DNA of 64,000 nucleotides from Metallumcola ferriviriculae (GTDB taxonomy: Bacteria; Bacillota; JADQBR01): assembly GCF_035573695.1 (NCBI RefSeq), contig NZ_CP121694.1, positions 3,170,001 to 3,234,000 on the forward strand, in the 5' to 3' direction. The position numbers and the translations under genes are program-made. The notes below the pieces were generated by a model that had not been told where the DNA came from, did no database searches, and saw only the letters and a program-made list of their open reading frames with translations. Shown one piece after another: positions 1-60,591 of this stretch (position 1 is the first letter of the stretch; each line of letters begins with the position of its first letter).

Positions 1-2978
<2,978 letters not shown>

Positions 2979-3204
2979 AATTATCTTAAGCTCATTTGAG
3001 CTTAATTATCTTAACTTGAAGTTCTCTCCGGCTCCTCTTTGCTTTATTTTCTTACAAAAAGGGTCCGCTTAAATCTTTTGCCTCGGTACTTCAAACGCTT
3101 ATCACGCTTGGTTGCCGCTGCTTTAAAATTTAGGCTTTAAAACTTTCTTTCCGCTGTTCAGTTTTCAAAGACCTCTCTCGCCGCCGCTTTCGGCGACAAA
3201 TACT

Positions 3205-5690: not shown

Positions 5691-5895
5691 AAAAAACACT
5701 TGTCCACTTTAGGGACGAAGTGTTCCGCGGTACCACCCTAATTGCTGCCATAGGCAGCCACTTTCCACCCGTTAAGGGGGGCCACCCTGTAAGCTCCGAG
5801 TGTAATTTCACCTAAAACCTTGACCGGTTTGCAGCAACCACCGGCTCTCTGAATTCAAGATTTTTAGGGTATTGTACCCATCTCCTCACTTACTC
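5691..5895 (-). promoter_or_regulatory. T-box leader (Tyr) of tyrS
   Basis: The minus strand carries the T-box core AGGGTGGTACCGCGGAA (about 5725-5741) and then a terminator hairpin (ACACTTCGTCC...GGACAAGTGT plus T run, 5691-5724). The upstream stem I has a TAC codon at 5802-5804, followed by a purine, in the expected specifier position, consistent with sensing uncharged tRNA-Tyr. Transcription continues into tyrS when the antiterminator forms. Confidence 0.93.
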
Positions 5896-23462: not shown

Positions 23463-23735
23463 AAAAAAAGCTTAAGTCCATCAGGGACGAAAGCTCCTTC
23501 TTCCGCGGTACCACCCTAGTTAACCACTAGTGGTTCAATCTCTTTTACGATACGCATGATATCGTCTTCCATATAACGGCGGAAGATCCGACCCGGCCTA
23601 CTAAGATATATTTTCAACCGGCTACTCCTGGGCGAACTTCGCTTACCTACTCTCAAAGAGGCTTCCAGTCTTTGGCCTCTTATCCCTGGGGAGAAGCTTT
23701 GTAAGTTACTTTTCCCAATCATCGCCTTTATTACA
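23463..23735 (-). promoter_or_regulatory. T-box leader (Phe) of pheST
   Basis: The minus strand has the core AGGGTGGTACCGCGGAAGAA (about 23500-23519) followed by a terminator (AGCTTTCGTCC...GGACTTAAGCT and seven T, 23463-23495). The TTC codon at 23634-23636, in GCGAAGTTCGCCC, is in a suitable position as the Phe specifier. The promoter was not identified with confidence; it may lie in the short gap after yqzL. Confidence 0.9.
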
Positions 23736-28210: not shown

Positions 28211-28440
28211 AAGCCCTCTCATCCGTACAGGGACGAAAGGACCGCGGTTCCACCCTAATTGAGAGCTGTGCTCTCCTCCTCGAACACCGTTAACGGCGGT
28301 AACCGGTCTGCCTTAGTAAGGTTGGGGCAGACACTCAGAGATGGTTTTCAGTAATACATCGGTTTAAAGGGCTTCCAGCCAGCGGCCCTCATTCTCTGTA
28401 AACATGAGTTACCTACTTTTTCTCTTCATCATTTTCGCTA
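28211..28440 (-). promoter_or_regulatory. T-box leader (Thr) of thrS
   Basis: The T-box core AATTAGGGTGGAACCGCGGT lies at 28241-28260 and is followed by a terminator-type hairpin (CTTTCGTCCCTGTACGGATGAGAGGG, 28211-28240). Stem I has an ACC in GAAAACCATCTC in the 3' part that is the likely Thr specifier, though an ACT a few bases before it is also possible. Confidence 0.88.
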
Positions 28441-33894: not shown

Positions 33895-36800
33895 ATTTCA
33901 ATCCACGCACACATATAGGGTGCGACTTGAAAACCGCTGCGGCTGTTTGGTGTTCCTGGCCAAATTTCAATCCACGCACCCATATAGGGTGCGACGCGGT
34001 TATTCCGCTGAGTACGTCAGCGACCTGAGGATTTCAATCCACGCACCCATATAGGGTGCGACGATTTTGGTCTGTTATGCGTTTCCCTGCTGCATAATTT
34101 CAATCCACGCACCCATATAGGGTGCGACAACCAAACCCAAAGGGAGGAATAACAATGTTAAAGATTTCAATCCACGCACCCATATAGGGTGCGACTTACT
34201 ATCAGCTTTAGCACTGCCGGTGCTCCGATATTTCAATCCACGCACCCATATAGGGTGCGACACCCCGATTACGATGTTCAAATGGGAGAGTAGGTATTTC
34301 AATCCACGCACCCATATAGGGTGCGACCCCGCAGCGCCTGTGCCTCATTGGTTCCGCTTTTGATTTCAATCCACGCACCCATATAGGGTGCGACACGTCG
34401 TACCTCTAGCGCGGCGTCGTACTTTTCTATATTTCAATCCACGCACCCATATAGGGTGCGACTATTCGGCATCCCTCGTCCCGAGGATAACGAAAAGATT
34501 TCAATCCACGCACCCATATAGGGTGCGACGCAGATACACTTCGCCTTTGACGATGTTAAGACAATTTCAATCCACGCACCCATATAGGGTGCGACATCAA
34601 AACTACGAAAGATGCCACAAAACAGGCCAATTTCAATCCACGCACCCATATAGGGTGCGACTCGAGCACCTTAATAAACGCAATATTTTTTGATGATTTC
34701 AATCCACGCACCCATATAGGGTGCGACGCCATACCGGAGTTGAGGATATAAGACTCAATATAATTTCAATCCACGCACCCATATAGGGTGCGACGTCTTA
34801 CCCGACTCCCGCTTGCCATAAGCAAAGAATTTCAATCCACGCACCCATATAGGGTGCGACGCTCTGAAGGAAGCAGTTACTGCTGCAGTAGCTGATATTT
34901 CAATCCACGCACCCATATAGGGTGCGACGGCATGCACATGACTATTGGGACGATTACGTGCCGATTTCAATCCACGCACCCATATAGGGTGCGACAGGTT
35001 TTGCCGTCAATTTTAATTTTAGGTGCTTGTATTTCAATCCACGCACCCATATAGGGTGCGACATTTATTAAGGAGGCCTTTTAAATGTCTAAAGTAATTT
35101 CAATCCACGCACCCATATAGGGTGCGACGTATGCTCCAATGCCAGGACTGCAAAAAGTCATGATTTCAATCCACGCACCCATATAGGGTGCGACTATGAA
35201 GTGGCGATACTACTGATGGACCTGGGGAGATTTCAATCCACGCACCCATATAGGGTGCGACCAGACACTTTGAGCCGGTACAATAGTTAAATAGTCATTT
35301 CAATCCACGCACCCATATAGGGTGCGACGTTACAATAACAGTATTATCTCAAATACTCCTGATTTCAATCCACGCACCCATATAGGGTGCGACGCCAGTC
35401 CCTGCATTTTACCGGGTCTTCCACTGGGATTTCAATCCACGCACCCATATAGGGTGCGACCACCACTTCCACTAGGATCTCGGCAATCCCCGCCAATTTC
35501 AATCCACGCACCCATATAGGGTGCGACGGTACCAAGCAGCCGGTTCTAAAGTTCGATGCTGATTTCAATCCACGCACCCATATAGGGTGCGACGCGATTA
35601 CCTAACCCAAAAGGTAACTCATAAAAAATTTCAATCCACGCACCCATATAGGGTGCGACACCCCCATTAGTTTAATTTATACTGCTATGCTAAATTTCAA
35701 TCCACGCACCCATATAGGGTGCGACATCTTTCCGGGAGCGTGGATTATTGCCACGGTAGTATTTCAATCCACGCACCCATATAGGGTGCGACAGGGCGAC
35801 GTATTTGCTTTGTATCCGAAACGTGAATTTCAATCCACGCACCCATATAGGGTGCGACGCGCTCCGACTGGCCGTGCTGCAAAAAGGATGAGTATTTCAA
35901 TCCACGCACCCATATAGGGTGCGACGTGGCCGGTGACGGTTGACCCGACTACCGTTACAATTTCAATCCACGCACCCATATAGGGTGCGACCCACCGGCG
36001 CGACTAATAGCATTAGTCTTATCAAATTTCAATCCACGCACCCATATAGGGTGCGACTTCTGATGCAAGATTAGAGCGGATTGTTTCGACGATTTCAATC
36101 CACGCACCCATATAGGGTGCGACAATAAATTCATCGCGCACCTGGTAAGTGTCAGGGATTTCAATCCACGCACCCATATAGGGTGCGACAGCAGGCGGGT
36201 GAGATTTTGGTTGATATTGACAAATTTCAATCCACGCACCCATATAGGGTGCGACAAGCTATCTGGCCCACGGTCAATGTAATCACCAAATTTCAATCCA
36301 CGCACCCATATAGGGTGCGACATAAGCGGTGCGTATTTTCTTAATGAGCTTTGGCCATTTCAATCCACGCACCCATATAGGGTGCGACATCGTTTAATTT
36401 CTGGAATTTTATCTGCTAGTTTATATTTCAATCCACGCACCCATATAGGGTGCGACTGGAGCACTTCATTTTTGGTTTCAGCCGCTCGATATTTCAATCC
36501 ACGCACCCATATAGGGTGCGACATAGTACCGGGCCCATCGCGTAGTTTACACCATCATTTCAATCCACGCACCCATATAGGGTGCGACGTCGCTGGGTTT
36601 CTTTTACTGTGGCGCCGGTTGTATTTCAATCCACGCACCCATATAGGGTGCGACGTGAAGTGTGAGTGTTGTGCGGAGTTGGCGGAGTTATTTCAATCCA
36701 CGCACCCATATAGGGTGCGACACGACATGGCATCGTTTTATAACCTTAAGCCGGAAATTTCAATCCACGCACCCATATAGGGTGCGACGAGATACAAAGG

Positions 36801-38721
36801 TAGCGGTAAACTCAGCTTCTGTAATTTCAATCCACGCACCCATATAGGGTGCGACCCGAGACCTTTGACCTTACCGGAGTAGGCGACGGTGATTTCAATC
36901 CACGCACCCATATAGGGTGCGACAACCACCAATAGTACCACCAATATAACTGCCAAAATTTCAATCCACGCACCCATATAGGGTGCGACGGTGGCAGCAG
37001 GGGAGCCACGGTTTGTGGACGGGATTTCAATCCACGCACCCATATAGGGTGCGACAAGAAATGGAGAACTTTTTGCTATATCACATGGAAATTTCAATCC
37101 ACGCACCCATATAGGGTGCGACGGAAAACGCAAAAGCGAGTAAGTTTTTCACAAAAATTTCAATCCACGCACCCATATAGGGTGCGACGGCTCACGCTCA
37201 AGATGATGAGTTTGAGGTAATCGATTTCAATCCACGCACCCATATAGGGTGCGACTACCATGCGACTACGCTATAGACGCAGACGGAGCAATTTCAATCC
37301 ACGCACCCATATAGGGTGCGACTATACAAGCGAATGTTAAACCAATACCACGACGATTTCAATCCACGCACCCATATAGGGTGCGACGAAGCGCAGGAGA
37401 TGGGGGGTAGTTTCTTTGACTATTTCAATCCACGCACCCATATAGGGTGCGACGAAAAAACTTATGACATTTATACAGGTGATGTAGATATTTCAATCCA
37501 CGCACCCATATAGGGTGCGACGTGTGTGACTCTAGCGGGGTAGTGGTGAGGTGGAATTTCAATCCACGCACCCATATAGGGTGCGACGGTAGTAAGTAAA
37601 AGTAGATAATAAAGCAGTTCGATTTCAATCCACGCACCCATATAGGGTGCGACGTCTGGTACATTGAGGCATGGCAACGCGGTAAACCATTTCAATCCAC
37701 GCACCCATATAGGGTGCGACTGTTAAGCTATGCTAAGGTAAAGCAATCTATCACCATTTCAATCCACGCACCCATATAGGGTGCGACACCTGACCAGGGC
37801 AGATGCGGAAGCAGTCAGAAAAATTTCAATCCACGCACCCATATAGGGTGCGACCAGATTAAAGCTAATTAGTGACAGATGCGCACAAATTTCAATCCAC
37901 GCACCCATATAGGGTGCGACGGCTAGGGGTTCGATTCCTCTCGGGTGCTCCAATATTTCAATCCACGCACCCATATAGGGTGCGACGTTCCTAGCATCTG
38001 GCAGCTGTGTATTTGATAAAGAATTTCAATCCACGCACCCATATAGGGTGCGACAACTGCTGCCTTACATGATAGCAAGGTTGTAACATTATTTCAATCC
38101 ACGCACCCATATAGGGTGCGACGAGTGGTGCCAGGAATTGGATCCGACGCCTGATATTTCAATCCACGCACCCATATAGGGTGCGACTCCTGCCGATATT
38201 CCCTGGTCCTCCACCACTCGTAATTTCAATCCACGCACCCATATAGGGTGCGACTTGGCAGCATCCGGCGTGTGCATGAGGTGCTGGTGATTTCAATCCA
38301 CGCACCCATATAGGGTGCGACGTCACATCGACGCTTATCTGTTCTTTTGACCAGGCAATTTCAATCCACGCACCCATATAGGGTGCGACATCCGGGTAAA
38401 CATAGACTTGTCTATGCCGTTCCGATTTCAATCCACGCACCCATATAGGGTGCGACTCTAGCCGCATTTGACTAGCTCTCTCCTTCCGGTTTATTTCAAT
38501 CCACGCACCCATATAGGGTGCGACAATGGTCCCTCTCACCCTTTTTTTGTCGGTCCAATTTCAATCCACGCACCCATATAGGGTGCGACAAGTAATAAAA
38601 GCTATAGCCGACAATCCGGAAACATTTCAATCCACGCACCCATATAGGGTGCGACGACTTGTGCCTGGTCATACTATCCTCTCCTGGCTATTTCAATCCA
38701 CGCACCCATATAGGGTGCGAC
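33895..38721 (-). CRISPR. Type I-C CRISPR array, 73 repeats/72 spacers
   Basis: A 32-bp repeat (on the minus strand GTCGCACCCTATATGGGTGC followed by GTGGATTGAAAT) recurs every 65-69 bp from 33895 to 38721; I count 73 copies and 72 spacers of about 33-37 bp. This is the type I-C repeat, with GCACCC/GGGTGC forming the crRNA hairpin cut by Cas5. The cas2 side (38721) is the leader end. At the far end (33895) the last repeat is mutated (CACACATA in place of CACCCATA), as expected for the oldest copy. Apparent ORFs inside (HPIWVRGLK/APYMGAWIEI repeats) are artefacts of the repeat. Confidence 0.99.
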
Positions 38722-38880
38722 AGCGATTTTTATGAAAAAACACTGCGTTATCCATGTTTTTTCACAATAGATCGCCATTTCCCAATTTACCCACCGGTTA
38801 ATTGGTATACTATGGAGCAAAAAGCCTAATTTTTCGGTGCGAATGCCCCTGGATAATTATGTTCGCTTTACATTCGCACT
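38722..38880 (-). promoter_or_regulatory. CRISPR leader and cas2 trailing hairpin
   Basis: The AT-rich ~158 bp between cas2 and the first repeat is the leader side of the array. Next to the cas2 stop, GTGCGAATG (38837-38845 on the plus strand) and CATTCGCAC (38871-38879) form a 9-bp inverted repeat followed on the minus strand by CGAAAAATT and later TTTTT. It may end the cas mRNA or separate it from the array. No convincing array promoter is called. Confidence 0.5.
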
Positions 38881-39179
38881 TAAATGATCAAAGGACCTTC
38901 TACATCAATTGATCCTTTAGTACCAATGTGCTCAACTTTTGTTTTATAATTGTCTCCTAACCGATAGATACGCAAACTATCTTTTTTTTCATCAATAGTT
39001 TCTACCAATTTATACTTTAATTGTCTTAATTGTGCTGAGTCGACAACACATTCAAAAACTGAGTTCTGGACTCGAATACCATAGTCTTGGCAAATCTTAG
39101 ACACTTTTCTCAACCGTTTTGACCCGTTTGAACTTATTGTGCTAACATCATAGGTAATAACAACTAAAATAATAATCAC
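38880..39179 (-). CDS. cas2: CRISPR-associated endonuclease Cas2
   Basis: The 99-aa ferredoxin-fold protein forms the Cas1-Cas2 spacer-integration complex. The start VITYDVST and the later QNSVFECVVD and DSLRIYRLG segments are standard Cas2. A GTG at 39179, one base after the cas1 stop, is chosen because it gives the normal Cas2 length; the longer upstream frame would overlap cas1. The ribosome site is weak, so translation is probably coupled to cas1. Confidence 0.9.
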   Translation of the reverse strand: MIIILVVITYDVSTISSNGSKRLRKVSKICQDYGIRVQNSVFECVVDSAQLRQLKYKLVETIDEKKDSLRIYRLGDNYKTKVEHIGTKGSIDVEGPLII

Positions 39180-39180
39180 C

Positions 39181-40212
39181 TTACTTCCATAAAAATGGAG
39201 GATATTCATCTAAATCGCCTCTTAAGTATCTTGCAAGCAGCATCGATTGGGCATATGGTACAAGCCCCCACGATATTTTTTCGCCAATATATGGGTGTTT
39301 GATCTTCTCCTGCTTTCGATCTTGCCAATGCTTTAAAAACTTTTTTCTTGCTTCGTCAGTCATTAGAACCGCTCCACTTTCTTTCGTAAAGAAGTCATCT
39401 TTGTTTACTACTTTTTTGTTTACTAAAGAAATTACAAATCGATCCGCATAAACCCCTCTTAGCTCTTCCATAACATCAAGAGCTAGTGAAGCTCTACCGG
39501 GCCTGTCTCGATGTAAGAACCCCACATACGCATCCAACCCCACGCTTTCTAGAGAAGCTGCTACATCATTAGAAAGCAAAGTATAAACAAATGATAACAT
39601 TGCGTTTACTCTGTCTAAAGGAGGTCGGCGGCTTCTTCTATGAAAATAGAAATCTTCTTTCTGCTGTAGTATGATCTGATCAAATACTTCATTATAACTT
39701 ATGGCGGCTTGTCCTTCATAACCCCTTAACAAATCTAATTTAGCAGTATGCCTGACTTGAATTAAAAGTTCAGATAGGTGACAGGATGTGTCTTTGAATT
39801 TTTGTACATCAATTCTTAAAGGGTAATCTCTCGTAGCTCTTTCCAGCATCCATTTATTATTATATATCTTACCAACAATGAAGTTTCGTGCTATTTCCGC
39901 ACTCTTATTTTCATCTTCAGATATGCGATACTGATTTTTTCTCAATGTCACATTTCCTCTACTTTTACCAATTACTCTTGCTAAAAATCGCCCATTTCTC
40001 GTTAAGAAAACTAATGATATACTTCTCTCTGCACAAGCTCCCATTAATGAAGGGCTTGCCCCACTATAACCAAACGTATACACCGCCTCTAGATTATGAA
40101 GAGGGATGCGTCCAATACGTTCTTTTTCTTTCATTACAACGATATTTTCACCATTTAGAGTTAAATATACATCAGGACTAGTAACGAACAAAGTGTTAAG
40201 CAACTTCTTCAT
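39181..40212 (-). CDS. cas1: CRISPR-associated integrase Cas1
   Basis: The 343-aa protein is the type I-C Cas1 that inserts new spacers. Seen: MKKLLNTLFVTSPDVYLTLNGENI N-terminal beta domain, then the C-terminal helical domain with LHRDRPGRASLALDVMEELR near residue 232-251, carrying the metal-binding His and Asp. It overlaps cas4 by 4 bp (ATGA) and is followed at once by cas2. Confidence 0.95.
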   Translation of the reverse strand: MKKLLNTLFVTSPDVYLTLNGENIVVMKEKERIGRIPLHNLEAVYTFGYSGASPSLMGACAERSISLVFLTRNGRFLARVIGKSRGNVTLRKNQYRISEDENKSAEIARNFIVGKIYNNKWMLERATRDYPLRIDVQKFKDTSCHLSELLIQVRHTAKLDLLRGYEGQAAISYNEVFDQIILQQKEDFYFHRRSRRPPLDRVNAMLSFVYTLLSNDVAASLESVGLDAYVGFLHRDRPGRASLALDVMEELRGVYADRFVISLVNKKVVNKDDFFTKESGAVLMTDEARKKFLKHWQDRKQEKIKHPYIGEKISWGLVPYAQSMLLARYLRGDLDEYPPFLWK

Positions 40213-40868
40213 TCGCTAATTTTCCTTTCTATATAGGTACTCACTGCTTGTTTCCCCATTAACTCTGGCAAACAAAGATTTTGCAATGAGCAGCTTTTAC
40301 AAAAAGCACCTGTTTTTACTCTAGGTGTATGCCGTTTATAAAAATAGTGATGCATCTCTTTAAATACTTCTCTCACCTTCTGCCTATCTGAATAATTAAC
40401 CGGCACCTCAATTCTACGCTTAATCTGATCGTAAAAAATATGGCCAAGACGAACTTCACAAAGAAGCATTTCTTCAAGGCATATTGCTTGAGCTACTAAT
40501 TGTAAGATATCTGATTCATCTGATTTAGGCTTTCCTCTTTTATATTCTATTGGAACTGGTATATATTTTTTTGATGAACCTTTAATTGATACACCATTAT
40601 GGTCTTCCTTAAATTCCACAACATCACAAACGCCTGTCGCGCCCAACTCTTTTGATTTAATCGGCAAAGCACGTACAATAAACTTATCTGTCCGTGTTTC
40701 TTTAATAAATGGTTGGTCTGCTTTTTGATGGATATGTTGCCCTTCGATCGTTCTGACATTTTCTTCCCATTGTTGTTCAATATGAATTAAAGCCCACTGT
40801 CGTTTGCAAAATAGGAAATGTTGAATTCCTGACAACAGCAAAAAGTTTTCTTCACTATTGGCCGTCAT
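40209..40868 (-). CDS. cas4: CRISPR-associated nuclease Cas4
   Basis: The 219-aa RecB-like nuclease selects and trims PAM-bearing prespacers. Seen: the first iron-sulphur Cys in FLFCKRQWAL (~20), GVCDVVEF and PIEYKRGKP (catalytic Asp and Glu-x-Lys) near 75-115, and CKSCSLQNLC near 190, giving the four cysteines for a [4Fe-4S] cluster. It overlaps cas7 by 14 bp and cas1 by 4 bp. Confidence 0.93.
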   Translation of the reverse strand: MTANSEENFLLLSGIQHFLFCKRQWALIHIEQQWEENVRTIEGQHIHQKADQPFIKETRTDKFIVRALPIKSKELGATGVCDVVEFKEDHNGVSIKGSSKKYIPVPIEYKRGKPKSDESDILQLVAQAICLEEMLLCEVRLGHIFYDQIKRRIEVPVNYSDRQKVREVFKEMHHYFYKRHTPRVKTGAFCKSCSLQNLCLPELMGKQAVSTYIERKISE

Positions 40869-41694
40869 AGACTTTCACATCAAGCCCTTCCAAATCTGTC
40901 AAATTTATCTCAATATCTTCGAATGATCTTGGCTCATCTGTTTTTAATTCCATAGATAGGGAACGATGGACTTTACCTGATGAATATTGACCTAATTTAG
41001 AGTTATGTTCCCACCAGTACACGTGATGAATCTCCATGCTTCCATCTGGGCGTGCTGATGATGCATCGTTTTCAAAAAGCGTCAAAAGAGCTTGTCGAAT
41101 TTTTTCAGCATCTTCTTCTGTAAATTTTGTCTTTTCAGCGAGCTGAGTATTAATACTTCCATAAAATGCGTAAATGCCAAAATCAACACGATGTTTCATC
41201 CCCATCGTATCAGAGCCTTTTTTATCAGAAGTTGTTGAATTAACGCTTTTTGTAATTTGGATGCTTGATATATTAACCGGATGCAAACTAACTGCTGGAT
41301 GGACAGACACGGGACCTCGTACTCCAACAGAAGTTGATTCTCCACCTTTAAAAGCAAATACTTGCCCAAAGCTTCTCACATCTGTCCAGGTTCTACACGA
41401 AACATCATGATACAGATCTTTATCCTTAGTTTTTTTTAATTCTTCAATAGCATCAGCACGCTCTTTTAAACTCTTGAAACCATCATCTTTTCGCTCGTCC
41501 GACTGCACAAAAATTGGTTCCCCTAGGTCCTGAAGACGATTTCGAATCTTTCTTTTTAAACAAACGTCTGATACTTCGCCGTATCCTTCGTAGTTTTGCC
41601 GAGGACGGTTTCCATTCAATGGGTCACCATTTGGGTTTGCGTTTTTCACAGAAAATACCACAGCAAAATCAATCTTATGGTCTAAAATAGACAT
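40855..41694 (-). CDS. cas7: Type I-C Cascade backbone Cas7 (Csd2)
   Basis: The 279-aa RAMP protein forms the filament along the crRNA. Family features: FAVVFSVKNANPNGDPLNGNRPRQN at the start, RTWTDVRSFGQVFAFKGG, and SVHPAVSLHPVNISSIQITKS. The gene sits 2 bp from cas8c and overlaps cas4. The base composition is clearly more AT-rich than the flanking core genes, like the other cas genes. Confidence 0.95.
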   Translation of the reverse strand: MSILDHKIDFAVVFSVKNANPNGDPLNGNRPRQNYEGYGEVSDVCLKRKIRNRLQDLGEPIFVQSDERKDDGFKSLKERADAIEELKKTKDKDLYHDVSCRTWTDVRSFGQVFAFKGGESTSVGVRGPVSVHPAVSLHPVNISSIQITKSVNSTTSDKKGSDTMGMKHRVDFGIYAFYGSINTQLAEKTKFTEEDAEKIRQALLTLFENDASSARPDGSMEIHHVYWWEHNSKLGQYSSGKVHRSLSMELKTDEPRSFEDIEINLTDLEGLDVKVYDGQ

Positions 41695-41696
41695 AT

Positions 41697-43619
41697 TTAT
41701 TCCTCCTCTTTTGTTTGCGTAATTTTATCCTGATTTTCTTTTTTGCTTCTATATAATTCATGTCGCTGACTATAGAATCCTAATAAGTAGATTCCGCTTA
41801 ATGATTTATTACTAAAATCGTCGATATTTATATTAGAAGCAATTTCATCTATTAAACGATTGTAATAAATTACCTGATTACCAAGTTTAGCTTGATAGGG
41901 TTGCAAATTTGCCTGAATAACCTGCCATGTTCTAGCAGGATGTCTGGCAAAAGCGTTCATATACCGTAACGCATTTGATGCCCGTCCTTCATTTGTTGAT
42001 AATGCCCTTCTTTCGAGAACATCAGCAACTGCTAATAAGCGGCCAAATAAATAATCTCTGTTCTTATTTGTCACGTCTAAAGACACGTCATACCCCTCCT
42101 TTTCATAATGCTTATTTAATAAAGCACACGTAATGCTTAGTGTTTTTTCCCACTCCCATCTTTCCATCGAAACCGGATTAGAAGCTCGGTGGAATGCACT
42201 TCTAATAATATCTAGTGGGATTTTCTGGCCATCCACCACACAAGGAAGCATCCTTTCCATCGTCCCTTTAATTACTTTGTCACTAGCTTTAAATCCATAA
42301 GCAGCATACGCGATATCTTTAGTCGCCGGTGCTCCATAAAACAAAATTTGCTTTTTGTTTTCATCTTTTCTGTAACGATGTAACCACGAGCAAGTTTGAT
42401 GCCAGTTCTGAATACGATTTAAATATTCCTCTTTATCTATGTGTCGATAATACATGATTGATAATCGCCCAGGAGTTGCTGCATCAAGAATCATGATTGT
42501 CACTTCGGATTTATAGGGCAGATCATTCTTATACCCATCAATTGCTCTATTAATCTCTTCTGCAAACATTTCGTGAGTATTGCTCTCGTTTGTTTTTTTA
42601 GCAAGACTTATCCCTAGTTCATTGAAAAAAGAAACTGCATCGTCTTGTGGTGAAGGAATACTCGTTTTTTGACTTCCCCATACGAGAAAAACTCTCCCAT
42701 CAACGGTTTTTCCTTGCTTTAATATCAACCATTTCAAAGCGTTATGGGCTTTTTGTGAAACATCGTAGCTAACACATGTTACATCATTACCTTTAGCAAA
42801 ACGACCTCGATAAGTAAACCCTGTGGTATCATTAGAAGATATAAGCTTAGCCTTATCACCAGCTCGCCTCAAGCCACTTGAATGCATAACTGTTCTTGGC
42901 TTTCTTTCTCCCGTTACATAGCATAGATCGTTTTCTTGTAATTTATCTTTATAGAATCCGATAAAAGAATCATATACCTTACCATCCTGCCAAATCTTTA
43001 TATTATTGATTTCTCCAGGTTTATGTGTGTTGAAGCGAATAAAAACTTTGTCCTGTGTATCATTGATTACTTTAAAAAGTTCTGGTTTATCGCCATACTC
43101 TTCGGTAGCTTCTTTCGACCATTTAGAAATCAATTTATTGTTTTTATCTAATGTGAGAATAGAAACCGCAACAAGATCTTCAACAATAGTCCCCTTCTGA
43201 ACGTATTGATAGATTGCTTTTACCCTATCATTGGAAAAAGCAGATTCACTCCATTCATGCAATTTCTCTAAATAGTCATCATAAGGCGAATCCTCTTTTT
43301 TTATCTTTCCTCCATACTTTTCAAAATCTCCTGCCACATAAACTAATTTATCATGCAAGGGATGTGGTCGAACTGCTGAGCCAGCTCTCCCAAAAGATCC
43401 TTCCGTACAAGGGATAACTGTAGTAGCATCATCTTTATCTATCACTTTGGCTTGATAAAAATTTCCCTGTTCATCGACAGTAATTTCAATTTGAGCATTT
43501 TGTGTTGTATGGGCAATTGGCAACAATGTATACTCCCGGTTACTTCTAGTTCTTACCACCTTGCCTACTTGATCGATGTTTTCTTCATATGTCTGAAATA
43601 AATCATACATCCAGCCCAT
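41697..43619 (-). CDS. cas8c: Type I-C large subunit Cas8c (Csd1)
   Basis: The 640-aa large Cascade subunit recognises the PAM and, in I-C, also yields an internal small subunit (Cas11c) from its 3' end. Seen: LFQTYEENIDQVG at the N-terminus, CYVTGERKPRT and GFTYRGRF near 250-290, and the helical C-terminal third (YLFGRLLAVADVLERRAL, ARHPARTWQVI). It starts one base after the cas5 stop codon, so the two are coupled. Confidence 0.94.
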   Translation of the reverse strand: MGWMYDLFQTYEENIDQVGKVVRTRSNREYTLLPIAHTTQNAQIEITVDEQGNFYQAKVIDKDDATTVIPCTEGSFGRAGSAVRPHPLHDKLVYVAGDFEKYGGKIKKEDSPYDDYLEKLHEWSESAFSNDRVKAIYQYVQKGTIVEDLVAVSILTLDKNNKLISKWSKEATEEYGDKPELFKVINDTQDKVFIRFNTHKPGEINNIKIWQDGKVYDSFIGFYKDKLQENDLCYVTGERKPRTVMHSSGLRRAGDKAKLISSNDTTGFTYRGRFAKGNDVTCVSYDVSQKAHNALKWLILKQGKTVDGRVFLVWGSQKTSIPSPQDDAVSFFNELGISLAKKTNESNTHEMFAEEINRAIDGYKNDLPYKSEVTIMILDAATPGRLSIMYYRHIDKEEYLNRIQNWHQTCSWLHRYRKDENKKQILFYGAPATKDIAYAAYGFKASDKVIKGTMERMLPCVVDGQKIPLDIIRSAFHRASNPVSMERWEWEKTLSITCALLNKHYEKEGYDVSLDVTNKNRDYLFGRLLAVADVLERRALSTNEGRASNALRYMNAFARHPARTWQVIQANLQPYQAKLGNQVIYYNRLIDEIASNINIDDFSNKSLSGIYLLGFYSQRHELYRSKKENQDKITQTKEEE

Positions 43620-44339
43620 CTAGGTCCTCCTTCCTTTCGCCATTTCTTTTTCCAAATCTTCCACAGATTGCACGTTTTCTTTTAGGAAGGATTTTGGTGT
43701 TAGCTCAGAAATAGGTCGAATTAATTCACACTCATCCGGTCGGATAAAGTGAATATACCCATCTTCCAACACTGGATTCCATAATCTTGTCTCTAGCATA
43801 TTGACCCCAGTTTCATCGGGGTAATTTAACCCATGTACCATTGTCCCTAAGTGAATTGAGCCATACTGATCGTAATAACCCTCCCCTTTGCCAAATTCAC
43901 ATGGTTCGACATAGGCCGGGCACTCTCGAGTTCCTAAAAAAACATCTCTTCTTCCACCTGCATTCACGCATCGTATTGCAATGTTATGATGTTTATGCTC
44001 GTTTCGGTCATAAGCTAGATCAGGACGATGAGGATTGAATATAAAATGGGCACGTACCTGATACCGCACATTTTTCAAATAAGTATAGTTAGCTAATGTA
44101 TTTCCACCTTTGTACTCAATTGGACGGATTCCCTTTGCCTCCATTTTAATTGGATTCATTATTCTAACCCCATCAATGATCCAAAGAATCGTCGGTTTCC
44201 AGTAAAGCGATTCAGTAATACCCTTAAGTGCTTGGTATGTGGGAACTTGATAAGATAGTTTCTCTCCTCCCATCTTTGTTACAGGATCAGTAAATAACGC
44301 ATAAGCACCATATACCTCAAATTCAACTTGATTTCGCAC
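43620..44339 (-). CDS. cas5: Type I-C crRNA-processing Cas5 (Cas5d)
   Basis: The 239-aa RAMP protein takes over crRNA cutting in type I-C, which lacks Cas6. Seen: [37 protein letters not shown] (N-terminal RAMP domain) and [16 protein letters not shown]. cas3 is ~15 bp upstream and cas8c abuts downstream. Confidence 0.94.
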
Positions 44340-44354
44340 AGTCTCACCTCTTTT

Positions 44355-46763
44355 CTATAAAATGTGTGGGGCCATTTTCCCTTCTTCCCCAACTGAAATG
44401 CCATAATTTAAATCATACGCATTTTCCCTTAAGGCCAGTATTCTTCCATCCAATAAGGGGATTAAGTCTCCTGAATTACTAAGCTCTTGAAGCTCGTATT
44501 TAAATACGTTAACAACGTATTGTTGTGACTTTTTCAATATGGATGACATCTTCTTTAAATCAACATCCCCATTTAGTTCTGCTATGATATCTGCTCCACC
44601 TTTATAGGGAACTATAATTGACGTTGCTTGCTGGTCAATGACTTGAAAATGATCGCCAACTGTTTTCATACTTGTATAGAGTTGCAAAGGAAAATGTTCG
44701 CCCGTCTTGTTTTTATAATGCTGTTTGTATGTTTCACTTCCTGCAAGTAAATTGTATAGATTTTCTTTCAACGATGGCACATGAAAACCTAGCTCATTTT
44801 CCAATTCCGTATAATAATTTTTGAAGTACAGATTCATTACTTCAGCCGATAATAGGTCCTTGGAAATATTCCCGTTTTGCTTATCTATCAACATCCGCTC
44901 TGTAATTTCTGCCCCAGCTTTGATAGTCTTTAAATAATTAAGGTTTTCTTCTTTATGATTAACTACATAGACGTTCCGTTGTTCATGTTCACCATGGCGA
45001 TTACACCTGCCTGCCGCCTGGGCAATTGAATCCAATCCAGCTAAAGACCTAATCACACAATCAAAGCTAATATTAACTCCTGCTTCGATTAATTGCGTAC
45101 TGATACAAATTACTTTCGCACCACTTTGCAAGGTGCTCTTGACTTTTGCCAATATCGCTGTCCGATGTGCTGCACACATCGACGTACTCAAATGGTATAC
45201 TACTGTATCCTCGTTCTTACTTAGTTGGTTGAACAACTTTTTTACCACTGTCTTTGTATTTAGGATAACTAATACACTAGATGATTCATTAAGGACATCT
45301 AAAACAAAATATGATAACTCCTCTGTATTCCAGCCGCCATGTCTTGTCCGGTCCACAATTTCTACTCGCTTAAAATGATCTGTTACCTTATCAAGATTCG
45401 GAACAATTTCTCCGTCGATACCATCAATACTATCCTCAACAAATTCAAGGGCAGGCTGAGTCGCCGTACATAATAGAATACTTGAATTGCAAACATTCCT
45501 TAGATAGTTCAATGCTTCATTAAACATGGATATACATTTAACAGGAACTGCTTGCACTTCATCAAAAATAATGACCGTATTTGCCAGATTATGAAATCGA
45601 CGAATATCTCTTGTACCTTTTGAATAGAAAGTATTTAGAAATTGGACCATTGTTGTGAAGATAATAGGTACTTCCCAGTTGTCCTTTGTTAACTGATGTG
45701 TCTTTCTCTTCTGATATGGTATTTTGGCATCTTTATCTTCATCTTCTTTAATTACATTTGAATGGTGCTCAAGAATATGCTCATCTTCTTTTAAAATTTC
45801 TCTAACCTCAGCTGCATTCTGTTCAATAATTGAAGTATAGGGAACCACATAAATGATTCTGTCCTTACTAAATTTGGCTGCATGCTTTAGTGCATATCGT
45901 AAACTTGATAGCGTTTTTCCGCCACCAGTAGGAATCGATAATGTGTAAATACCAGATGGACGGTCAGCGAATTTATCACACTCCTCAGACATTTGCTCTC
46001 GAAGACGGTCAATTGCATTAATGTTAACATCATTATTTAATGAGTTTAAATGTTCTGTTAGTCTTTGATAGAATAAATTAAATAAATCATTGTTATTTCG
46101 CGATTCAGGAACATTAATATCCTCTTCAAAACACCTTGAATCTGTCCTATCCGCATCGATTAAACAGCTGAAAATATATTTAGTTAAAAATGTCATCGTG
46201 AGGTATGGATTTTTTGATTGAGATCGCTTATTGTTTCGCGTTAGAACGTCTGTTAATTCGTTCTTACTATTCTGAAGGTCGTCTGTAAGGGATTTTAAAG
46301 GAGCTATCAATTGAAAGAAATTGTCTTTAACTCTGTCAATGTCATTAATTTCTTTCTCTTTTACTCGTCGCATATAGGTAGAGGTTGTATCTGGAGATAG
46401 AAAATCTTGTAGGCCCATATGGTGAGATAATATAACGTTACCTAATATTTCAGCAATAATCTGCATGGGCACATTTTGACCATGGTGATGGAAATACTCG
46501 AATAATATTTTTCCACCTGCGGTCGAGTGGTCTACACTTCCTTTTTTAGGTGGATGATTTGGGTTGTTAACTGCTTCTAAAATATAGTCCCGAAATTGAG
46601 TGCTCAATTTACCTGAGTCATGTAACAAACCTGCAATATATGCTAACCGTTCTACTCCTATTTTTTTACCATACCGAGCAGATAATTTACTTACACTCAT
46701 TAAATGCTCTTCAACCGACTGAATATGACCATCTTCATTACGTATATGGGCAATATACTCCAT
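44355..46763 (-). CDS. cas3: CRISPR helicase-nuclease Cas3
   Basis: The 802-aa effector degrades target DNA. Order: an N-terminal HD nuclease with AGLLHDSGKL (~47) and VDHSTAGGKI (~77); SF2 helicase motifs with Walker A PTGGGKT (~278), IIFDEVQAV (~402) and STQLIEAGVN/QAAGRCNRHGE (~560-590); and a C-terminal domain. First gene of the operon; GGAGGC lies ~10 nt before the ATG. All catalytic motifs look intact, so the system is probably functional. Confidence 0.95.
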   Translation of the reverse strand: MEYIAHIRNEDGHIQSVEEHLMSVSKLSARYGKKIGVERLAYIAGLLHDSGKLSTQFRDYILEAVNNPNHPPKKGSVDHSTAGGKILFEYFHHHGQNVPMQIIAEILGNVILSHHMGLQDFLSPDTTSTYMRRVKEKEINDIDRVKDNFFQLIAPLKSLTDDLQNSKNELTDVLTRNNKRSQSKNPYLTMTFLTKYIFSCLIDADRTDSRCFEEDINVPESRNNNDLFNLFYQRLTEHLNSLNNDVNINAIDRLREQMSEECDKFADRPSGIYTLSIPTGGGKTLSSLRYALKHAAKFSKDRIIYVVPYTSIIEQNAAEVREILKEDEHILEHHSNVIKEDEDKDAKIPYQKRKTHQLTKDNWEVPIIFTTMVQFLNTFYSKGTRDIRRFHNLANTVIIFDEVQAVPVKCISMFNEALNYLRNVCNSSILLCTATQPALEFVEDSIDGIDGEIVPNLDKVTDHFKRVEIVDRTRHGGWNTEELSYFVLDVLNESSSVLVILNTKTVVKKLFNQLSKNEDTVVYHLSTSMCAAHRTAILAKVKSTLQSGAKVICISTQLIEAGVNISFDCVIRSLAGLDSIAQAAGRCNRHGEHEQRNVYVVNHKEENLNYLKTIKAGAEITERMLIDKQNGNISKDLLSAEVMNLYFKNYYTELENELGFHVPSLKENLYNLLAGSETYKQHYKNKTGEHFPLQLYTSMKTVGDHFQVIDQQATSIIVPYKGGADIIAELNGDVDLKKMSSILKKSQQYVVNVFKYELQELSNSGDLIPLLDGRILALRENAYDLNYGISVGEEGKMAPHIL

Positions 46764-52676: not shown

Positions 52677-54008
52677 TTAAAACATGGTCAAATAATTTTC
52701 TAATTCCCAATTAGTTACCTGAATTCTATACTTATCCCATTCCAATTGTTTTGCATCTACAAAGCGCCGATAGATGTGTTCTCCCAATGCGCTCTGAATT
52801 ATTGTATTACCTTTCAATTCGACTAAAGCTTCTTCTAAACTGCCCGGTAAACTATCAATCCCTACTTCTGCCCGCTGGGCGGCGTTCATTTCGTAGATAT
52901 TCTGGTTTACTGGTTTTGGCGCTTCTATCTTATTCTTGATTCCGTCCAAACCGGCCTTAAGCATTACTGCAATAGCCAAGTAAGGGTTAGTTGACGGGTC
53001 AGGGTTTCTCATTTCTACCCTAGTCCCCACTCCACGTCTAGCAGGAATACGAATCAGCGGGCTGCGGTTACGGGCAGACCATGCCACGTATACAGGGGCC
53101 TCGTAACCGGGCACCAAACGCTTATAGGAGTTTATTGTGGGATTGGTAATAGCAGCCATTGCCCGGGCATGTTTTACCAAACCGCCAATGTAGTAATGAG
53201 CGTCTTCACTTAACTCCAATTCTCCATTGGGGTCGTAAAAAGCATTTTTACCGTCTTTAAATAGCGACTGGTTGCAGTGCATACCGGAACCATTAATTCC
53301 CATGATGGGTTTTGCCATAAAGGTAGCATGCAGTCCGTGACGCTGAGCCAAGGTTCTTACCACGTATTTAAAAGTCAGTATATTATCCGCAGTGGTCAAA
53401 GCATCGTCATATTTGAAGTCAATTTCATGCTGACCGGGGGCCACTTCATGATGTGATGCCTCTATTTCAAACCCAAGCTGCTGCAGGGTAAGCACCATAT
53501 CTCTGCGGGCGTTTTCACCCTGATCCACTGGAGTTAAGTCAAAATAACCGGCTTTGTCATGAGTCTCCAAGGTGGGTTTTCCATTTTGGTCGGTATGGAA
53601 GAGAAAAAATTCAGCCTCGGGACCGACGTTCATGGTATACCCCATTTCCTTTGCTTCAGCAATTACCTTTTTTAAGGTGTTACGCGGGCAGCCGCTAAAT
53701 GGAGTGCCGTCAGGATTGTAAATATCGCAGATTAATCTTGCCACAGCGCCTTCTTGGGGTCGCCAGGGAAATACAGCGAAAGTATCGGGGTCGGGCTTCA
53801 AATACATATCTGATTCTTCAATACGCACAAAACCTTCAATAGAAGAACCATCAAACATTAGCTCCCCGTCCAGGGCTTTTTCCAACTGGTCACGAGTAAT
53901 AGCGACATTTTTCATCACACCAAAAATATCTGTAAATTGCAGCCGAATAAATTGAACATCCAAATCCTTTGCTTTTTTCAAAATCTCTTGTTTAACTTCC
54001 GGTTTCAT
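52677..54008 (-). CDS. glnA: Glutamine synthetase type I
   Basis: The 443-aa enzyme makes glutamine from glutamate, ammonia and ATP. Seen: [11 protein letters not shown]-type latch ([18 protein letters not shown]), EAEFFLF near residue 135, [12 protein letters not shown] near 245, and [13 protein letters not shown] followed by [14 protein letters not shown]. The adenylylation-site segment is absent, as in the Firmicute GSI-alpha type. Its leader carries an ANTAR-type antiterminator, and a REC-ANTAR regulator gene is just upstream. Confidence 0.98.
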
Positions 54009-54039: not shown

Positions 54040-54125
54040 AAAATGCGTCCCAAACATAAGGTGCATAAAAACACCTAGTTCGGAACGCCTTTGCTCCAGT
54101 CATACCAGCAGACATCATTGCCTGC
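54040..54125 (-). promoter_or_regulatory. ANTAR dual-hexaloop antiterminator and terminator, glnA leader
   Basis: In the leader RNA, hairpin 1 is GCAGGC-AAUGAU-GUCUGC (54108-54125) and hairpin 2 is GGAGC-AAAGGC-GUUCC (54082-54097), separated by 10 nt. Both loops have six bases with A at position 1 and G at position 4, the ANTAR recognition rule. The 3' arm of hairpin 2 (GCGUUCC) is also the 5' arm of a long terminator (54045-54088) ending in a U tract, so the two are mutually exclusive. ANTAR binding should allow readthrough into glnA. Confidence 0.85.
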
Positions 54126-54251
54126 TAAAATATTTGATTTTATTAATTGTAACATTACATCCAATTTTGCTCAAGCAGCAATTTCCATGTATACAATATT
54201 TCCATCAGAAACTTCTGGGAAAAAAGTAAAATGCGGGGTGCATTCCCGGAT

Positions 54252-54833
54252 TTAGCTGCCTAAATCATGAGCTAAAATAATTGCTTCCGCCACCTGGCGC
54301 ATAGAGACACATTTATTCATGCTTTGCTTACGAATCAACTTATAAGCTGCTCCTTCGCTAATATTTTTTGTCTCCATTAAAATTCCCTTCGCTCTTTCCA
54401 CCAGCTTTCTGGTTTCCAAAGTTTCTTTTAGCTCAGCCACTTCCTTTTCCAACTGCTGAATGCGTTGAAAGTTACTTCGGGCAATGCCGATACTGCTTAT
54501 TAGGTTAGTGTCAGTAACCGGTTTTATCAACCAGGATATCAGCCATGGCTCGTGCCCCTTTGTCGTATGCTCCCGCTGCCAGTTATTTAATAAAACTACT
54601 GCAGGAGCTATATTATCTTCATAAGCGATGCGGGCAAGTTCCATACCGTTAAGCCCTGGCAGGTCAGCATCGACAATGATAAGAGCCGGCAGGGTAGACC
54701 TGATCCCCCTAATAGCAGTGTTTCCGTCGGCTGCCTCACCCACAATTTGATACCCTTCACGGATTACCGCCTGCCGTACCTTTTCCAAAACTCTTTTATC
54801 TTGTGTCGCCACGAAAATTTTAGACTGAAACAT
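54252..54833 (-). CDS. REC-ANTAR antitermination response regulator
   Basis: The 193-aa protein has an N-terminal receiver domain (phospho-acceptor region IVDADLPGLNG near residue 55), a short coiled coil (QLEKEVAELKETLETRKLVERA) and a C-terminal ANTAR RNA-binding domain (AKGILMETKNISEGAAYKLIRKQSM near 148-172). Such proteins bind dual-hexaloop RNA and block terminators. Its gene is directly upstream of glnA, whose leader contains such RNA. No histidine kinase is adjacent, so the activating signal is unknown. Confidence 0.93.
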   Translation of the reverse strand: MFQSKIFVATQDKRVLEKVRQAVIREGYQIVGEAADGNTAIRGIRSTLPALIIVDADLPGLNGMELARIAYEDNIAPAVVLLNNWQREHTTKGHEPWLISWLIKPVTDTNLISSIGIARSNFQRIQQLEKEVAELKETLETRKLVERAKGILMETKNISEGAAYKLIRKQSMNKCVSMRQVAEAIILAHDLGS

Positions 54834-55056
54834 AAAGTTCCCTCCAAAGTCGTCCTGTCTATAGTCTATACAAATCTTGTCGTAAACTACAATGAATAGT
54901 TAAAATGAATACTTGCAAGTCTTTTAAGACGCAGCAGAAGGCTTAGTTCAATTTATGCCTCCTCAAAGATATGCTTTCTGAATGGTACAAAGAAATCCCC
55001 ACCAGAAACCTGATGAGGACGCCATTGCCCTAAAACCGATGTAATTCAAACTAATT

Positions 55057-55404
55057 ATGAATAAAAATGACCCCGGTGTCAAGGAATACCCTAGAAAATA
55101 TTGTATACTTCATTTCGGCATCTGGCCATCCCTTGTATATAGATGCCATAATTGTAACAAACTACCTATTGAGGGGGTGGCGACGCTGTTAAGTGAACAG
55201 CTTCAGTTAAATGTAAGCGATGCCCAAGCAGTAGAACATTTTTTGGATAAAACCCAACTGGTGGCGAAAAAACTTCTTTTGTATGCCGATTCGGCCCAAA
55301 ATTCTTCGGTGAAGAGTATGTTCAAGAAGGAAGCTTCGCTGCTGGTCAAGGTAGCTGAGGAATTAGAAGGAATGAAAATAAGTTTGCTTAATGCTGAGGA
55401 GTGA
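55057..55404 (+). CDS. Small helical protein of unknown function (first of pair)
   Basis: A frame of up to 115 aa. The first ~40 codons (with CHNC) may be non-coding, because a GTG at about 55178 begins a clearly helical, charged protein (ATLLSEQLQLNVSDAQAVE...). No strong ribosome site marks either start. It is followed at once by a second small gene that looks related in its C-terminal part (SSVKSMFKKEASLL versus NSLKKKFLKYSALA). No family is recognised; a helical bundle is likely. Confidence 0.5.
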   Translation: MNKNDPGVKEYPRKYCILHFGIWPSLVYRCHNCNKLPIEGVATLLSEQLQLNVSDAQAVEHFLDKTQLVAKKLLLYADSAQNSSVKSMFKKEASLLVKVAEELEGMKISLLNAEE

Positions 55405-57797: not shown

Positions 57798-59485
<1,688 letters not shown>

Positions 59486-59576
59486 TCTTATCCTCTCCTT
59501 TTTAATCTATTGAGACAATTAACTAACTTACAGCTACTTCGAATCACCTCCGGAATTAATTTGTATCAATATTCAA

Positions 59577-59616
59577 AGTGGCACCATTGACCTGTAATAC
59601 CGGTTCAATGGCACCA
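59577..59616. repeat. Imperfect palindrome with GGCACCATTGA arms, amtB leader
   Basis: GTGGCACCATTGACC and GGTTCAATGGCACCAC lie around a 9-bp centre and pair except for two mismatches and one bulge. The arm GGCACCATT also forms the centre of the palindrome after asnB, suggesting a common element. Confidence 0.5.
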
Positions 59617-59652
59617 CTGCCACGGTCTCCTTAGTCCATAAAAGGATAAAAG

Positions 59653-59714
59653 AAAAATGCCCCCCGAAAAATATTAACGAGAGGCATCATCGCTCCAATC
59701 CGCACCTGTGCGGA
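59653..59714 (-). promoter_or_regulatory. ANTAR-type module 2 and terminator, amtB leader
   Basis: Hairpin 1 UCCGC-ACAGGU-GCGGA (59699-59714) fits the A1/G4 hexaloop rule. Hairpin 2 GGAGC-GAUGAU-GCCUC (59681-59696) has G4 but G at position 1 and one A-C mismatch. Its 3' arm overlaps the terminator stem UGCCUCUCG/CGGGGGGCA (59658-59686) that is followed by a U tract. It is less perfect than the glnA copy. Confidence 0.6.
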
Positions 59715-59718
59715 AACT

Positions 59719-59783
59719 AAAAAATGCCCTGCAAACCTTAAGTTCACAGGACATCGTTGTCCTTTTGGCAACATCATCGTTGC
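59719..59783 (-). promoter_or_regulatory. ANTAR-type module 1 and terminator, amtB leader
   Basis: Hairpin 1 GCAAC-GAUGAU-GUUGC (59768-59783) and hairpin 2 AGGAC-AACGAU-GUCCU (59748-59763) are 4 nt apart. Loop 2 has A1 and G4; loop 1 has G at position 1. The 3' arm of hairpin 2 overlaps the terminator CCUGUGAAC/GUUUGCAGG (59728-59750), followed by a U6 run, so the folds exclude each other. Confidence 0.7.
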
Positions 59784-59804
59784 ACTAATTTTGAAGTTTG
59801 AATT

Positions 59805-59833
59805 ATTATAATACCATTTACTGAGTAAGTCAA
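59805..59833 (-). promoter_or_regulatory. amtB promoter (TTGACT-17-TATAAT)
   Basis: On the minus strand TTGACT (59828-59833) and a perfect TATAAT (59805-59810) are 17 bp apart, about 22 bp before the first ANTAR hairpin. Confidence 0.85.
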
Positions 59834-59889: not shown

Positions 59890-60591
59890 TTAAAATTTGC
59901 TAAGGAAATCTTTTAGTTCCGTTAAATCTCCTCGCCCATCTGGTTCATATGTAGGGTCACCACGATCAATTAAATTCTTTGTAACCAGGAAAGTTGTCAT
60001 TCCTAAGGATTTAGAGACTATATCCTCTTGCACATCATTACCGATCATCAAGCATTGCGCTGGCCTGACTTTGATCTTATCAGAAATTTCTTGGTAATAA
60101 CGGGGATTTGGTTTACAGGTGCAGGTATTTTCATATGCGGTTACCAAAGCCCATGGGAAGTGCCCCACCCCTGCCCACTCCATCCGATGACGGATGGCGG
60201 CTTCAGGAAATACCGGGTTTGTGGCTAATACTATCTTATATCCCTTATCCACTGCTAGTTGTACCACTTCGGCTGCTTGTTCAGTATACCCTGCATACTG
60301 TTTTAGCTGGGGAAATTCGTCCCGATAAAAAGTTTCAAAGAGTGGTGCCATCACTTCTCTTTCCTGTTTAATAGCAGGGAGAAACTGCTGCATGAACAGC
60401 TCCTCGTTGGAAACGGTACCATCATTTTGCAGCATCTTTTCCGTCGCCGTCAGCAGGTATTTGAGAAATTCAGCAGGCGCGGCAACATCACGAAAGTAGG
60501 GGGCAACGGTGCCAAAATACTTTTTGAGAAATTCTTCAGTATTTAACGGCAGCAGCGTGCCGTCTAAATCGAATAAAATAGCTTTAGACAT
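59890..60591 (-). CDS. HAD-superfamily hydrolase
   Basis: The 233-aa phosphatase-like protein has the HAD motifs: LFDLDGTLLP (nucleophile Asp) near residue 8, VLATNPVFPE near 124, CKPNPRYYQE (Lys) near 163 and CLMIGNDVQED near 180. It is likely a small-molecule phosphatase; its substrate cannot be read. It ends ~57 bp before the amtB promoter, on the same strand. Confidence 0.9.
   Translation of the reverse strand: MSKAILFDLDGTLLPLNTEEFLKKYFGTVAPYFRDVAAPAEFLKYLLTATEKMLQNDGTVSNEELFMQQFLPAIKQEREVMAPLFETFYRDEFPQLKQYAGYTEQAAEVVQLAVDKGYKIVLATNPVFPEAAIRHRMEWAGVGHFPWALVTAYENTCTCKPNPRYYQEISDKIKVRPAQCLMIGNDVQEDIVSKSLGMTTFLVTKNLIDRGDPTYEPDGRGDLTELKDFLSKF

Follow-up and report, generated by a model that had tools for sequence, protein, structure and literature searches.

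Candidate tandem ANTAR antitermination modules in the amtB-glnB leader of Metallumcola ferriviriculae

Results

Genes at the locus

The window analyzed here is the whole stretch of 64,000 nucleotides from the M. ferriviriculae genome. On its minus strand lies amtB (58148..59485; PF00909, 429.8 bits), with glnB, which encodes a P-II protein, in the same operon and on the same strand (57798..58136; PF00543). About 3.3 kb downstream of amtB, and beside glnA (52677..54008, minus strand), the minus strand also carries the gene of a response regulator with an ANTAR output domain (54252..54833; PF03861, 80.1 bits; PF00072, 40.0 bits). This protein, whose relatives include EutV (6WW6) and Rv1626 (1S8N), is the linked ANTAR protein that an earlier reading of the DNA from its letters alone (the sequence-only reading) had supposed, and is the presumed binder of the RNA elements described below. 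When aligned to EutV, its receiver domain keeps the phospho-Asp and the Lys, and reads as T at one expected acidic residue and as N at an expected T/S position. No kinase gene is adjacent to it. A similar arrangement is seen for NitR of Clostridium saccharobutylicum, an ANTAR response regulator that likewise adjoins glnA. The M. ferriviriculae genome has a second ANTAR response regulator (G000:C1:240882-241040), located near a glutamate-synthase-like gene, which brings the total to two.

Elsewhere in the window, the 16S rRNA match (1264-2979, minus strand) spans 1716 bases and is longer than the model of 1533 positions, so that ~180 extra bases (insertions) are apparently present; a partial 23S match likewise looks longer than its model. 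T-box leaders on the minus strand at 5708-5893, 23480-23731 and 28226-28438 stand before apparent tyrS, pheS and thrS genes, and the region 35955-46763 has a CRISPR array, with repeat frames SHPIWVRGLK and VAPYMGAWIE, adjoining CRISPR-associated genes that resemble subtype I-C. Both the T-boxes and the array are ordinary.

Two dual-hairpin units in the amtB leader

The amtB leader is preceded by a sigma-70/A-type promoter, TTGACT-17-TATAAT (59833-59805, minus strand), which matches the consensus at 11 of 12 positions and was called strong in the sequence-only reading. That reading had also claimed two dual-hairpin units, each sharing a 3' arm with a terminator, and both direct inspection and folding bear this out. 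The two units, as well as all of their parts given below, are on the minus strand, within ~145 nt of the predicted transcript start. In unit 1, hairpin P1, GCAAC[GAUGAU]GUUGC (59768..59783, loop in brackets; read from the sequence and found by our scanner), is separated from the putative antiterminator hairpin P2, AGGAC[AACGAU]GUCCU (59748..59763; scanner and covariance model R1), by the 4-nt linker CAAA, a length common in this phylum, and both stems are perfect over 5 bp, where the definition of these RNAs asks for 3 bp or more. The following terminator T1 (59723..59755), a 15 bp hairpin with a subsequent U run, has GAUGUCCU in common with P2 and folds at -18.6 kcal/mol (z -6.7). In unit 2, P1 is the perfect hairpin UCCGC[ACAGGU]GCGGA (59699..59714; scanner and R1), the linker is UU, whose 2 nt place it among the shortest in a set of 80 units, and P2, GGAGC[GAUGAU]GCCUC (59681..59696; scanner, folding and R1), is imperfect, as its pairing requires either a single A-C mismatch or the bulging out of a C. 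Terminator T2 (59656..59688; 11 bp, again with a U run) has GAUGCCUC in common with this P2 and folds at -15.8 kcal/mol (z -4.9). In both units the 5' arm of the terminator thus overlaps the 3' arm of P2; the terminators had been recognized before, although the extents then assigned to them, 59728-59750 and 59658-59686, were a few bases short.

The loop letters had been reported accurately. G stands at position 4 of all four loops (GAUGAU, AACGAU, ACAGGU and GAUGAU), while position 1 is A in two of them and G in the two copies of GAUGAU. As each unit contains one such G1 loop, the strict seed rule of 2012, namely A1 in both hairpins, fails once in each unit.

P2 and the terminator are mutually exclusive in folding. 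For unit 1, the terminator state was computed at -24.4 kcal/mol, as compared to -16.5 kcal/mol when P1 and P2 were held, while for unit 2 the corresponding values were -23.7 and -10.0 kcal/mol, i.e., gaps of ~8 and ~14 kcal/mol, respectively. The terminator states are thus predicted to be favored when no protein is bound, which fits default termination.

Since just 33 nt separate P2 of unit 1 from P1 of unit 2, a single transcript carries both units; a second promoter between the units was considered and rejected, given these 33 intervening nucleotides. We likewise rejected the idea that cooperativity arises through cross-pairing of the freed 3' arm of T1 with the 5' arm of T2, as the cognate and non-cognate duplex energies were equal. 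Between unit 2 and amtB, the minus strand also contains a long hairpin without a U run (59574-59619; AGUGGUGCCAUUGA ... UCAAUGGUGCCACU) and, around 59550 and ~65 nt 5' of the amtB start, a perfect Shine-Dalgarno-like GGAGGTGATT with no evident reading frame.

Related elements in the window and the genome

A third unit, overlooked in the sequence-only reading, was found by the scanner in the glnA leader (54043..54128, minus strand; 37.3 bits with R1), downstream of the ANTAR response-regulator gene. Its loops, AAUGAU in P1 and AAAGGC in P2, both have A1 and G4, and it too has an overlapping terminator. In the genome as a whole, R1 recovered the unit at glnA and the pairs at both amtB genes, along with two weak matches; the initial filter of this search missed unit 1, which scores 34.1 bits when searched directly.

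The leader of the ANTAR gene itself (54995-55082, minus strand) presents a different picture. A strong promoter, TTGACA-17-CATAAT, precedes a lone hexaloop hairpin, AGGGC[AAUGGC]GUCCU, with a terminator-like hairpin overlapping it (54995..55031, minus strand; R1, folding and alignment), and the first hairpin is missing, as the predicted start leaves too little room for it. Two further genera of the family (L276 and L277) have conserved both the hexaloop and the hairpin, and full dual units precede ANTAR genes in other families. This may be a single-hexaloop autoregulatory leader.

Chance expectation and covariance model

Our scanner demanded two hexaloop hairpins with a purine at loop position 1 and G4, allowed one mismatch, and required an overlapping terminator. 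On both strands of the 64-kb window it found three units, two at amtB and one at glnA, whereas 30 shuffled versions of the window, with dinucleotide content kept, averaged 0.07, a figure that is somewhat flattering, as the lenient purine and mismatch settings were chosen after the units had been seen. With zero mismatches, unit 1 and the glnA unit were the only ones found in the window.

Covariance model R1 comprises 40 positions and was built from 14 training units, namely both amtB-leader units, the glnA unit and units from seven other loci. Units 1 and 2 score 34.1 and 23.1 bits, respectively, although it should be considered that both are in the training alignment. A closing C-G pair is found in 28 of 28 seed hairpins, even though the scanner made no such demand. 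When loops were scanned without any demand on their letters, G4 was present in 25 of 39 P1 loops and 33 of 39 P2 loops, and position 1 was A in 22, G in 11, T in 4 and C in 2 of the P1 loops, and A in 28, G in 5, T in 4 and C in 2 of the P2 loops. Pair covariation, the check put forward in the sequence-only reading, was positive in the seed and in the matches of a sequence-only model; as it was counted on units that had been selected for pairing, it is partly circular and is not used here as main evidence. Rfam gave no ANTAR family match over the amtB leader, its matches there being weak chance ones.

Survey of the phylum

R1 matches at E<=0.003 were found in 41 of 398 genomes of the phylum, and all 41 encode a PF03861 protein, as compared to 205 of the 398 overall (hypergeometric 1.8e-13). 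Of 134 other amtB loci, picked by the AmtB protein alone, 59 have a sense R1 match within the 800 nt upstream and none an antisense one; a terminator-coupled unit is found at 49 of the 134, again with none in antisense. The scanner alone, when applied to the 80 last-fetched amtB leaders, all outside the training set, yielded 10 sense units and 1 antisense unit. A scan of genome contigs by AmtB alignment, which gave 80 named loci, produced almost no units and one convincing case (L103), with near relatives possibly absent from this set. Among relatives, single units occur 5' of glnA, of glutamate-synthase genes and of ANTAR genes; at three loci (L178, L180 and L185) an ANTAR gene is again followed by a unit and then by glnA. 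An ANTAR nitrogen regulon seems common in the phylum, with about one third of the surveyed amtB leaders having a unit.

For the tandem layout, defined as two coupled units whose starts are at most ~200 nt apart, 8 of 50 unit-bearing amtB leaders, from 6 genomes, were positive; the window leader, which prompted the tandem hypothesis, is included in this count. The seven others, found upon comparing amtB leaders, a check that the sequence-only reading had suggested for relatives, are those of the organism's own amtB2 (L026), of both amtB genes of G004 (L003 and L021), and of amtB loci in G033 (L018), G013 (L024), G128 (L111) and G089 (L199). A ninth pair, before an amtB2 relative of G058 (L177), is outside the count of 8 in 50. 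As G013 and G128 belong to the same genus, the independent tandem events number fewer than eight. No tandem pair was found among the 44 glnA leaders with a coupled unit (70 glnA loci), so that 8 of 50 at amtB versus 0 of 44 at glnA gives a one-sided Fisher P of 0.005. No close orthologous leader of the window pair exists for comparison.

Discussion

Antiterminators that depend on a protein are, as a rule, portrayed as switches acting singly. The known RNA targets of ANTAR proteins include those of EutV (eutP, eutG, eutS and eutA of Enterococcus faecalis), NasR (nasF) and AmiR (amiE) (Ramesh et al. 2012, PMC3369931). Upon activation, the EutV dimer binds the hexaloops, such that the terminator is prevented (PMC3369931, PMC8934654). 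The elements described here resemble these RNAs in having a pair of hexaloop hairpins with G4 throughout, a closing C-G pair and a P2 that cannot coexist with the terminator, in preceding nitrogen-metabolism genes, and in occurring in a genome that encodes an ANTAR response regulator. In contrast to these RNAs, a single leader, that of the window amtB, contains two complete units one after the other, each unit has one G1 loop, and in unit 2 P2 is mismatched and the linker measures 2 nt. In eutP, altered closing pairs abolish induction and A1 is needed, although the change tested was from A to U (PMC3369931). In practice the A1 rule is followed loosely, both in the scan with free loop letters and in actinobacterial ANTAR RNAs, just over 50% of which keep A1 (PMC8164766). 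The eut linkers measure 5-12 nt; linkers of 3 and 14 nt were impaired, and the 3-nt linker failed in eutP (PMC3369931). With its mismatched P2, short linker and G1 in the P2 loop, unit 2 is the weaker candidate and may not be fully active.

Taken together, the architecture described in 2012, the linked regulator, the glnA unit, the co-occurrence with ANTAR proteins and the recurrence of tandem pairs at amtB make the ANTAR-type interpretation given in the sequence-only reading the best one. We consider it quite probable that the amtB-glnB leader contains two ANTAR antitermination modules in series, driven by an ANTAR regulator, whose leaks would multiply. Points that speak against it are the G1 loop in each unit, the imperfect P2 and short linker of unit 2, the T and N at the two receiver positions, and the lack of a kinase gene next to the regulator.

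Three other explanations need to be considered. The one to be taken most seriously, although we regard it as unlikely, is that unit 1 alone responds to the ANTAR protein, unit 2 being degenerate and its terminator acting as a fixed brake or being constitutively read through. The features that make unit 2 the weaker candidate (imperfect P2, G1 in the P2 loop and 2-nt linker) speak for this, as do its lower R1 score (23.1 vs 34.1 bits) and its antiterminator state, which lies ~14 kcal/mol above the terminator state, rather than 8 as in unit 1. Nonetheless, unit 2 retains G4 in both loops, both closing C-G pairs and an exact overlap with its terminator; moreover, linkers of 1-2 nt and G1 loops recur in units elsewhere, and tandem pairs recur at amtB. 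Alternatively, the two units could be read by different ANTAR proteins as a two-signal AND gate. The genome does have two ANTAR response regulators, yet the loops show no division of units into two classes, and in G033, which also has a tandem leader, one of the two ANTAR matches is a frame of 61 aa, such that we find this explanation improbable.

It could also be argued that T1 and T2 merely terminate transcription of the HAD-phosphatase gene upstream (59890-60591), which has the same orientation and whose end is ~55 nt from the promoter, with the small hairpins being incidental. However, the promoter separates that gene from T1, the terminators are within the amtB transcript, and each of them overlaps a hexaloop hairpin, an arrangement that shuffled sequences yield at 0.07 units per window. 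We consider this explanation very unlikely.

Two serial ANTAR modules, the interpretation that we prefer, would operate as follows. By default, RNA polymerase would halt at T1, and any polymerase that passed T1 would halt at T2. Nitrogen shortage would activate the ANTAR regulator, most likely that encoded at 54252-54833, which would then dimerize and bind both hexaloops of each unit upon their emergence, holding P2 closed and so preventing formation of either terminator. A complete amtB-glnB mRNA would need read-through at both T1 and T2, while the single glnA unit would answer to the same regulator. Since transcripts must pass both modules, the read-through fractions should multiply, resulting in a lower off level and a steeper rise; for example, if each terminator let 10% of transcripts pass, 1% would get past the pair. 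The AND-like gate and the steeper response proposed in the sequence-only reading would be expected on this reasoning, and the doubling probably serves a tighter shut-off of ammonium uptake.

ANTAR elements 5' of ammonium transporters were already reported in the 2012 survey (PMC3369931). According to the legend of its Fig. 9, Desulfotomaculum acetoxidans has 13 attenuation systems in six transcriptional units of nitrogen metabolism, a regulon that is similar to the present one in having several ANTAR attenuators per transcription unit at nitrogen genes. The available text is silent on whether the 13 systems stand in tandem within a leader, but with 13 attenuators in six units, tandem copies may already be tabulated there. 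In the text available to us, neither the tandem layout nor its bias towards amtB is described, and the new aspect appears to be that the doubling recurs before amtB and is absent before glnA, a pattern specific to amtB within this nitrogen regulon.

Serial arrangements of two full sensor-terminator modules that respond to one signal are also known from tandem riboswitches and T-boxes whose expression platforms are independent, for which a digital-like, pseudo-cooperative response is expected (PMC12452182). There the sensor recognizes a small molecule or a tRNA, whereas in the amtB leader it would be a protein; ANTAR elements are not mentioned in that survey of tandem riboswitches and T-boxes.

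Tentatively, and with somewhat less than an even chance of being right, we propose that serial ANTAR units recur in several lineages and, within the nitrogen regulon, only at amtB, which would thereby leak less and have a sharper threshold in comparison with glnA under a shared regulator, such that uptake would be turned on only in deeper nitrogen shortage. If true, the number of modules would be a simple, countable means of tuning the dose-response of uptake versus assimilation under one regulator, and the amtB leaders would represent a protein-driven counterpart to tandem riboswitches and T-boxes.
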